From contig NZ_CAKAKB010000003.1 of the NCBI RefSeq assembly GCF_916618755.1, forward strand, positions 744,001 to 808,000: 64,000 bases of DNA. The letters are read 5' to 3'. This DNA is from Actinotalea sp. Marseille-Q4924 (GTDB lineage Bacteria; Actinomycetota; Actinomycetes; Actinomycetales; Cellulomonadaceae). Position 1 is the stretch's first letter; every line of letters begins with the position of its first letter. The notes under the pieces were generated by a model. It was given only the letters and a program-made list of their open reading frames with translations. It was not told where the DNA came from and did no database searches. Positions 60,578 through 62,230 of the stretch are shown here, one piece after another. Position numbers and translations under genes: made by a program.

Positions 60578-60687
60578 CCTCGCCGCCCCGCCCGGCCCCG
60601 CCCGGCCCGCCTCCGCCACGCTCCGCCCAGCCTCCGCTGCCCCGCTCCGCCCCCGCCCGCACCGGTTCCGTCGTCGCCATGTGCAGC
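60578..60687. other. C-rich non-coding tract
   Basis: Plus-strand pyrimidine-rich stretch with CCGCCC, CCCGG and CTCCGC-like units between the rarA stop and the first palindromic repeat. No gene or terminator is obvious. Its mirror image is the G-rich tract at 61925-62100, so both lie outside the repeat-flanked gene. Confidence 0.5.
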
Positions 60688-60752
60688 CGCACATCTGGAC
60701 GTTTCGGCTATCCCTGACGCTGAAACGTCGAACTCGGCCACCAGGACCGCGC
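60688..60752 (+). repeat. palindromic repeat, copy 1
   Basis: 65-base unit, identical in length to copy 2 (57 of 65 bases identical). It contains an imperfect inverted repeat, GACGTTTC and GAAACGTC, around a short loop. This is the most degenerate copy (11-12 of 15 stem pairs). Starts CGCACATCT and ends CCAGGACCGCGC. Confidence 0.85.
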
Positions 60753-60785
60753 CGTTCGGCGAACCCCGTCGCGGCGGTTCCCGCT

Positions 60786-60850
60786 CGCACATCTCGACGT
60801 TTCAGCGATCCCCGTCGCCGAGACGTCGAACTCGGTCACCAGGACCGCGC
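60786..60850 (+). repeat. palindromic repeat, copy 2
   Basis: 65-base unit, 98 bases after the start of copy 1. Stem arms 60794-60808 and 60815-60829 pair in 14 of 15 positions, counting one G-T, with a six-base loop. Direct orientation, ends 124 bases before the nuclease-like gene. Confidence 0.9.
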
Positions 60851-60974
60851 GGCGGATCATCGAGGGCGGGACGCCGGGACGGGGCGTCGTCCACGGCGAG
60901 TCTCCGGACCGGCGATCCACAGCCCGCGCCGTCCGTCGAGCGCGCGCCTGCGGCCGGCCGACAGCCTCGCCGTC

Positions 60975-61871
60975 GTGGCGAGCCGACTTCCTCCGCACTG
61001 GGTGCCCGACGTCGCCCATCGCCAGGACGGCGTGTTCACCGCGGCGCAGGCGATCCGGGCGGGCGCCACGCCGGCCCAGGTGCGCCACCGGCGCGAGCGG
61101 GGTGTCTGGCGGAGGGTCCTCGGCTCGGGTCTCGCCCGGTCCACGCTCGACGACACGCCTCGCAGGAGGGTCCAGGCGGCCGGTCTGACCTGGCCGGGCT
61201 GCGTCGCGGCGTTCTTTACGGCGGCTGCCTTCCACGGCTTGCCTGTCCCCGACGACGGGCTCGTCCACGCGTTCGTCGTCCGGGCGCCGCGCCCGCGGGC
61301 GGGCATGGTTCCGCACGAGTACCTCGTGACCTCCGAGGACGTCGTCACGGTCGGCGCCGGAGCCGTGACCACGGTGAGCCGCACGGTGCTGGACTGCCTA
61401 GGTCGACTCGGCGCCGAGGACGCTGACAGGCTCGCCACGTGGGCGGTCACCCGCGAGCTGCTCACGGCCGACTCCCTCGAGGCCGCGATCTCCGCACGGG
61501 CTGGGAAGCGCGGCACCCGTGCGCTCCGCCGCGCGCTCGCCGACATCGGTGACGGCGCCTTGAGCGCCGCGGAGCGCAGGATGCACCGGCTCCTCTCCCA
61601 GGCACGCGTGACTGGCTGGGAGGCAGACGTGCGGGTCTTCGACGCCGGCGGACTGATCGGGCGGGTGGACGTGCTGTTCCCCGCCGCGAAGGTGGTCGTC
61701 GAGGTCGACGGGTACGCGTACCACTCCCGCGCGGCCTTCCAGACGGACCGCACGAAGCAGAACCGACTCGTCGCCGCCGGCTACACCGTGCTGAGGTTCA
61801 CCTGGGCCGACCTTCACGACCGCCCGCGCGAGGTCGTCGCGACGATCCGCCGCGCGACTGCGGCGCGCTGA
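60975..61871 (+). CDS. AbiEi-like/DUF559 (Vsr-type) nuclease-like protein
   Basis: 298 residues. The N-terminal about 90 residues are a winged-helix region of the AbiEi/HTH type (DGVFTAAQAIRAGATPAQVRHRRERGVWRRV). The C-terminal domain is DUF559, related to very-short-patch-repair endonuclease: GRVDVLFPAAKVVVEVDGYAYHS and DRTKQNRLVAAGYTVLRFTW. The Asp of VDVLF, Glu and Asp of VEVDG fit a PD-(D/E)XK-like site. GTG 60975 was chosen; its neighbourhood has no ribosome-binding site. Function unknown; such genes are often called antitoxin-like in databases without evidence. It is bracketed by palindromic repeats, two before and one inverted at its stop. Confidence 0.8.
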   Translation: MASRLPPHWVPDVAHRQDGVFTAAQAIRAGATPAQVRHRRERGVWRRVLGSGLARSTLDDTPRRRVQAAGLTWPGCVAAFFTAAAFHGLPVPDDGLVHAFVVRAPRPRAGMVPHEYLVTSEDVVTVGAGAVTTVSRTVLDCLGRLGAEDADRLATWAVTRELLTADSLEAAISARAGKRGTRALRRALADIGDGALSAAERRMHRLLSQARVTGWEADVRVFDAGGLIGRVDVLFPAAKVVVEVDGYAYHSRAAFQTDRTKQNRLVAAGYTVLRFTWADLHDRPREVVATIRRATAAR

Positions 61872-61924
61872 TGACCGAGCTCGACGTCTCGGCGACCTGG
61901 TTCACCGAGACGTCGAAATGTGCG
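61871..61924 (-). repeat. palindromic repeat, copy 3, inverted
   Basis: 54 bases matching the reverse complement of copy 2 at about 45 of 54 positions. Stem arms 61881-61895 and 61902-61916 pair in 14 of 15 positions with a six-base loop. It begins on the last base of the nuclease stop codon. Mismatches relative to copy 2 are compensated in the stem, so the hairpin rather than the sequence is kept. Confidence 0.88.
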
Positions 61925-62100
61925 AAGCGGCGGGGATGGCTGCGGGGAGCGGCGGTGGGGGATGGCTGCGGGGAGGGCGGCGGGGATGGTTGCGGGGAGG
62001 ACGGCGGAGCGGACGGCGCGGGACGACTGCGGGCGGGGACGGCGGGCCGGCGGGGACGGCGGGCGGCGGGGACGGCGGGCGGTTGGGGGGTGGGGCTGGG
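61925..62100. repeat. G-rich low-complexity tract before rpsD
   Basis: Plus-strand G-rich stretch containing three near-copies of GGGGATGGCTGCGGGGAG-like units, then GGGGACGGCGGGC-like units. Many runs of three to six G could form G-quadruplexes. It lies between copy 3 and the rpsD promoter, and mirrors the C-rich tract outside copy 1. Confidence 0.6.
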
Positions 62101-62101
62101 G

Positions 62102-62107
62102 TAGAGT
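62102..62107 (+). promoter_or_regulatory. -10 element of rpsD and its 120-base leader
   Basis: TAGAGT predicts a start near 62114 and a leader of about 117 bases. The leader begins with a hairpin (GGTTGCCCG and CGGGCGACC, 62114-62136) that could bind S4 for autoregulation, though no match to a known leader was established. Confidence 0.4.
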
Positions 62108-62230
62108 TGTCGGGTTGCCCGCTCGCCGGGCGACCCTGGGGACCTCAGCCGCATCACGAAGGTTGGTCCCACACCCGCCGGGAACACACCCGCCGCGGGT
62201 CGTGCCACGACAACGACAGGAAGTATCTCT

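Follow-up and report, generated by a model that had tools for sequence, protein, structure and literature searches.

The window analysed here is a stretch of 64,000 nucleotides from Actinotalea sp. Marseille-Q4924 (genome G000 in our sample). The spacer between rarA/mgsA and rpsD (window positions 60578-62230) holds a gene on the + strand, at 60975..61871, that has these two as its immediate neighbours and encodes a 298-residue protein with an AbiEi-like part and a DUF559 nuclease domain; its GTG start was picked by alignment of homologues. Three copies of one repeat surround this gene. Copies 1 (60688..60752, + strand) and 2 (60786..60850, + strand) precede it in direct order, are 65 nt long each and agree at 57/65 positions (88%), and copy 3 (61868..61925, - strand; 58 nt) follows in inverted orientation, is 84% complementary to copy 2 and overlaps the stop codon (61869-61871). 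The earlier note had described this layout of two direct copies and one inverted copy on the stop codon, and the coordinates and the 57/65 identity confirm it. Each copy contains a palindrome core, at 60696-60731 (the least perfect of the three), 60794-60829 and 61881-61916, respectively. Outside the repeats lie a C-rich tract on the left (60580..60665) and a G-rich tract on the right (61930..62100), neither of them assigned to a strand; both had also been reported before and are present in the sequence, where they form inverted repeat I2 (75% over 32 nt), the right tract also carrying repeat family D1.

The palindrome pattern gave 5 matches in the window, at the three copy sites, and 0 in 100 dinucleotide shuffles. 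In the single-stranded form, folding is more stable for the copies than for most of their shuffles (z −2.5, −2.7 and −3.1). It had been proposed that a 15-pair stem is kept in copies 2 and 3 through compensating changes. The arms pair at 14/15 positions in copy 3 and at 13/15 in copy 2 (the latter read from the sequence), and the differences between the two copies are confined to one side of the stem; compensating changes are therefore absent. A GTAG end mark, read for by eye, is absent from all three copies. Strong C/G tracts mirrored on both sides were found at 12/77 loci versus 3/175 control ORFs, with the opposite pattern at 0 versus 8 (p 7e-5), and neither side taken by itself reached significance in a sign test (45/77, p 0.17; 47/77, p 0.07), which makes the tracts a weak candidate for a defining part of the unit.

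The encoded protein is taken to be DNA-binding and is probably DNA-cutting. A Pfam scan at E≤0.1 returned DUF559 (34.2 bits, cut-off 20.6), AbiEi_4 (26.9 bits, cut-off 25) and MTES_1575 only, with no HUH (Y1) tyrosine transposase domain, and the PADLOC AbiEi models cover residues 12-183; the AbiEi-like and DUF559 assignment of the earlier note thus holds, both Pfam domains lying above their cut-offs. Among 23 aligned proteins the invariant residues include E200, D232, E243, H250 and D258, and D245 is nearly so; we take E200, D232, E243 and D258 to be the acidic catalytic residues of a PD-(D/E)XK-type nuclease. An AlphaFold model of the window protein (mean pLDDT 88.6) was read for secondary structure. 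In a profile comparison with solved structures, the matches included 3hrl at 1.8e-8 and, for the nuclease half, 3r3p, a 'Mobile intron protein', at E 0.0018. At four homologous loci a frame break or stop apparently disrupts the nuclease gene while the palindromes are retained (L104 in G003, L114 in G004, L102 in G489 and L110 in G508), assembly errors being possible.

The same spacer was compared across 19 genomes of the genus, of which 18 were usable, the contig of G013 ending at the spacer. A DUF559 gene lies upstream of rpsD in 7/18 genomes (G000, G003, G004, G007, G009, G012 and G016; the G004 contig stops short of rarA). Ten of the 18 have a spacer of 143-346 bases without the gene, and no palindromes of these kinds were seen in the sequence of these ten short spacers, which are too diverged to fix the ends of the element. 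The remaining spacer, in G015, has 933 bases with a different insert and no DUF559 match. In G000 and G004 the gene has the same orientation as rpsD, and in the remaining five residents the opposite one. As for an invertible switch acting through the inverted repeats, no inversion was seen inside one genome, and the palindromes differ between genomes of opposite orientation. The five intact residents group together on the tree, with 2 label changes, a value as low in 1/500 shuffles, which is compatible with one or two arrivals. The palindromes vary among the spacer residents, those of G009, G012 and G016 being alike. A hypervariable recognition segment that might account for the differing palindromes of G000 and G004 was not seen, the differences between the two proteins being spread along their length. 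In the window's genome no near-identical copy of the whole gene unit was found, a query of 1701 bases matching only itself in full.

Homologues of the gene are widespread: 91/121 genomes sampled within the taxonomic family have one at E≤0.001, and 245/394 sampled genomes of the class have a profile match at E≤1e-15, with the best 6 candidates per genome scored. To find two-sided repeats, the 450-base flanks were compared across each gene. A match at E<1e-3 was obtained at 16/25 close loci (the window and 24 loci with proteins 35-53% identical) and at 16/19 distant loci, which include the three other homologues listed for the window's genome, versus 11/108 control ORFs; judged by their coordinates, three of these 11 controls are DUF559 genes or lie antisense to such a gene. 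With the threshold set at E<1e-6, a reading of the match listing gave 27/44 same-family loci versus 0/107 control ORFs (p 1e-18), one control having been dropped for being a DUF559 gene. Other families of the class gave a match at 17/29 loci, a figure obtained with 600-base flanks (450 bases in the controls) and including several short or single-orientation matches; of two loci from named records, one matched. At most of the loci with a match, the flanks match in both orientations, which is expected of palindromes. Three further DUF559-like genes of the window's genome, L122 (G000:C6:~212552), L123 (C6:~192443) and L124 (C1:~191431), have different two-sided repeats of their own, matching at E 1e-5, 3e-7 and 3e-8, respectively. 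Genes without detectable repeats, which the earlier note had listed as an observation that would speak against it, do occur at part of the loci: 9/25 close and 3/19 distant loci (12/44, about a third) and 12/29 loci of other families are without a match at E<1e-3. Bracketing of AbiEi-DUF559 genes by gene-specific palindromes is thus often found in Actinomycetia.

The palindrome sequence changes from gene to gene, except among orthologues of close relatives. Protein and palindrome similarity are correlated (Mantel r 0.58, p 1e-4, n=21), also without the close orthologues (r 0.24, p 0.008, n=18), a correlation that linkage alone could explain.

In the genome of the window the palindrome family has few members. 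Within the genus the window palindrome was found in 1/19 genomes, G000 itself, with one extra intact copy, and in the class sample of 394 genomes it matched in G000 and in one genome with an unrelated sequence. The extra copy (G000:C4:228201-228236; L032:6201-6236) lies between an ORF for an Lrp/AsnC-type-like regulator and an aminotransferase-like ORF, and no DUF559 gene was seen near it. With one mismatch allowed, the half-site occurs 16 times in G000 and 0-5 times in each of the 18 other genus genomes (controls 0-1). Five of the 16 are at the locus, two in the extra copy, four in an array, one in a degenerate palindrome on G000 C2 near 318285, and four are lone half-sites; three of these last four were scanned for a palindrome and none was found. 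The array (G000:C1:424590-424752; L311:~1590-1755) is apparently non-coding and consists of four half-sites in direct orientation, with two pairs 30 bp apart.

In four relatives the palindrome of the gene forms a dispersed, REP-like family. Half-sites of the G461 type, with up to one mismatch, number 42+49 (91) in G461 and 49+45 (94) in G442, which are close relatives and hence not independent, and 0 in four congeners and in the control; this family is thus found in 2/6 genomes of its genus, both carrying the gene. The G007 type, counted in the same way, has 10+8 (18) half-sites in G007, 1 in G009 and 0 in 17 others. The G508 type, counted with up to two mismatches, reaches 41+51 (92) in G508 versus 1+1 in the control, and 8-27 in each of five congeners versus 0-4 in controls; five such congener places that were fetched are real palindromes, with copies in G489 and G442. 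The palindromes within the fetched stretches, to which these counts refer, numbered 63 in G461, 70 in G442 and 52 in G508 (reversed-pattern control, 0 each); G007 has 17, one of them a shifted duplicate. No DUF559-like gene was present in 60 fetched dispersed stretches. Of the three families tested, two are therefore missing or almost missing from the other congeners searched, and the G508 type is not exclusive. The possibility, raised in the earlier note, of a common element unlinked to DUF559 genes fits neither the G461 type, seen in gene carriers only, nor the nearly exclusive G007 type and was not borne out, but G508-type copies also occur in the congeners G489 and G442. The G508 palindromes found lie within one half of contig C1 (2.89 Mb), from about 0.80 to 2.21 Mb, and GC skew hints only weakly that this is the terminus half. 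Two tandem arrays of near-identical units occur in this genome, one with seven copies of a 72-bp unit (L260:3014-3486) and one with four copies of a 62-bp unit (L263:3008-3234).

All site clusters (82/82, including six at cognate genes) are intergenic, 40 of them between convergent genes, 36 between codirectional and 5 between divergent ones, with 1 undetermined. All gaps of the stretches comprise 73 convergent, 224 codirectional and 70 divergent ones, so that the clusters are biased towards convergent gaps (p 2e-7) and away from divergent ones (p 0.005); intergenic placement and orientations rest on gene calls by a custom codon-usage script, which missed the broken gene of L110 and so makes the gap orientations there unreliable. 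Neighbouring palindromes are mostly spaced by 62, 72, 82 or 92 bp, that is, in steps of ~10 bp. With each spacing counted once per stretch, the phase statistic R was 0.84 (n=25), 0.91 (n=12) and 0.89 (n=32) in three genomes, and 0/5000 random draws were as high (p 2e-4 each). Orthologous arrays in G461 and G442 keep their position and vary in copy number. Over 14 clusters, five of them poorly aligned, the identity between these two genomes is 84% in the cores (90% without gaps), 43% (55%) in the spacers and 52% (63%) in the near flanks, the core columns being defined from the site consensus, which favours the cores.

Pairing between the arms barely exceeds that of shuffled arms in G461 (0.684 versus 0.672) and G442 (0.675 versus 0.667); in G508 it is higher than in shuffled arms (0.784 versus 0.760), and the excess comes mainly from positions 9-11. 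Covariation of the arms is absent in G461 and G442 and limited to positions 9-11 in G508, where a hairpin would explain it. Selection on hairpin structure, as the earlier note had proposed, therefore finds no support in the window copies, whose differences are one-sided, or in the arms of two of the three families. Intergenic placement, phasing, core conservation and little covariation together fit double-stranded palindromic binding sites in arrays better than hairpins. The published AbiEi is described as binding two inverted repeats of 23 bp with 3 bp between them and as repressing its own promoter; for a mycobacterial relative, two pairs of 23-bp repeats are given (PMC7319586). Among the close homologues, the palindromes share the two-half layout of these published sites, across about 36-55 bp. 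Given the same layout and the similar size, the simplest reading is that the fusion protein binds its own palindrome, and we infer such binding for the AbiEi-DUF559 protein.

The known systems that come closest are the REP/REPIN-RAYT pairs (REPtrons), RAYTs being the enzymes known to be paired with palindromic repeats in bacteria. As in those, the repeat is palindromic and lies around a gene of its own, additional copies are found in intergenic DNA, alone or in arrays (in relatives, and weakly in the window's genome), and repeat and gene are mutually specific. The enzyme, however, is an AbiEi-DUF559 fusion here and an HUH tyrosine transposase there; the palindromes have 36-55 bp, whereas REPs are given as 20-40 bp and as ending in GTAG (PMC3733652), which the window copies lack; and the sites behave like double-stranded binding sites. 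With an unrelated enzyme, no GTAG in the window copies and sites that behave differently, the system works like REP-RAYT without being a member. The idea of the earlier note, a REP-like element that has a nuclease of its own from a different enzyme class, fares well in that homologues are often self-bracketed and the palindromes dispersed in four relatives, and less well in the window's genome, with its few copies. AbiE type IV toxin-antitoxin loci share the AbiEi-like part, which makes up the N-terminal two thirds here, and have inverted repeats of comparable size close to the gene. Unlike in AbiE, a nuclease domain is fused to it, and sites also lie downstream of the gene and dispersed. An AbiEii nucleotidyltransferase toxin gene is absent among the immediate neighbours, rarA/mgsA and rpsD, and we therefore do not regard the locus as an AbiE toxin-antitoxin locus. 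The C-terminal nuclease domain is that of Vsr-like/DUF559 endonucleases, among them Caulobacter VsrA and the mobile-intron nuclease 3r3p, but here it is joined to an AbiEi-like, DNA-binding part, and its gene has palindromes on both sides. We noticed no intron or intein, and the likeness to homing endonucleases is confined to the domain relationship. Insertion sequences differ in having near-identical full copies, of which the gene unit has none in the window's genome. No description of a pairing of AbiEi-DUF559 with palindromes was found in the open-access literature, a scope outside which most subscription journals lie. As the locus is neither a REP-RAYT pair nor an AbiE locus, and as this literature gave no description, we judge the pairing to be new; it looks like an enzyme class previously unlinked to such repeats.

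We lean towards the view that the three copies in the window are binding sites of the protein of the enclosed gene, and that gene and sites together make up a single unit of a repeat system of the REP-like kind. In this view the AbiEi-like N-terminal part would bind the ~36-50 bp palindrome as double-stranded DNA, probably as a dimer with one monomer per palindrome half. Adjoining palindromes would be occupied in helical phase, and the upstream copies would probably serve as an autoregulatory operator too. The C-terminal DUF559 nuclease would nick or cut at or near such sites, repair would copy the sites, and rarely the whole gene unit, into other intergenic places, and site and protein would diverge together. 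What was directly observed is the bracketing, the dispersal in four relatives, the phased spacing, the conservation of the cores and a partial tracking of the site by the gene. That the nuclease drives the spread is speculative and in our judgement rather doubtful; nuclease-assisted spread is the role that we prefer for the nuclease, by analogy with RAYTs and for the domain relation to a mobile-intron nuclease. Any spread would be slow, since palindromes persist beside the apparently broken genes (in G508, G489, G003 and G004) and arrays are fixed between sister genomes.

The main rival gives the arrays a role in the chromosome or in transcription. The system would then serve the host, the protein being a dedicated chromosomal or transcription-insulating binder of phased arrays, the nuclease having another job or being a relic, and the sites duplicating slowly with no spread driven by the nuclease. 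The conservation of cores at fixed places in sister genomes, the bias of clusters towards convergent gaps, the helical phasing and the tandemly duplicated units of L260 and L263 all favour such a role, but a site sequence that varies by gene lineage, whole families missing from congeners, 10/18 genomes with a rarA-rpsD spacer without the gene unit and the retained catalytic residues do not, and we think it unlikely.

We consider it improbable that a different enzyme, a RAYT or another transposase encoded elsewhere in the genome, moves the palindromes and that the DUF559 gene is a passenger among them. RAYTs are known as movers of palindromic repeats, as reported in PMC3116915 and PMC3733652; the window palindromes, however, lack the GTAG end mark of REPs, and the many genomes in which DUF559 genes have two-sided palindromes of their own would have to be a coincidence. 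Purely local elements, an upstream operator and a downstream terminator-like hairpin of an autoregulated gene, would account for the copy on the stop codon and would be in keeping with AbiEi proteins that repress their own promoters through inverted repeats, as described in PMC7319586. This reading is contradicted already in the relatives, where tens of copies lie far from the gene (G461, G442 and G508), and it has to face the extra copies in the window's own genome and the use of the same sequence on both sides of the gene; we hold it to be very improbable.

With the candidate binding sites as the preferred reading, AbiEi-DUF559 may be a second, independently evolved REP-like system in Actinomycetia, marked by a nuclease whose operator-type DNA-binding domain recognises double-stranded palindromes, self-bracketing, dozens of helically phased arrays at gene ends and a recognition sequence that changes between lineages, a proposal that we regard as evenly balanced. 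Because the sites change between lineages, the family offers a ready set of protein/DNA pairs for deducing a recognition code. Questions of binding, cutting, site movement and chromosome organisation are directly testable in it. If the proposal is true, a second, unrelated protein would have its own repeats, which would mean that such systems arose more than once, and a very common gene family, matched by the profile in 245/394 sampled genomes of the class, would have gained a function.
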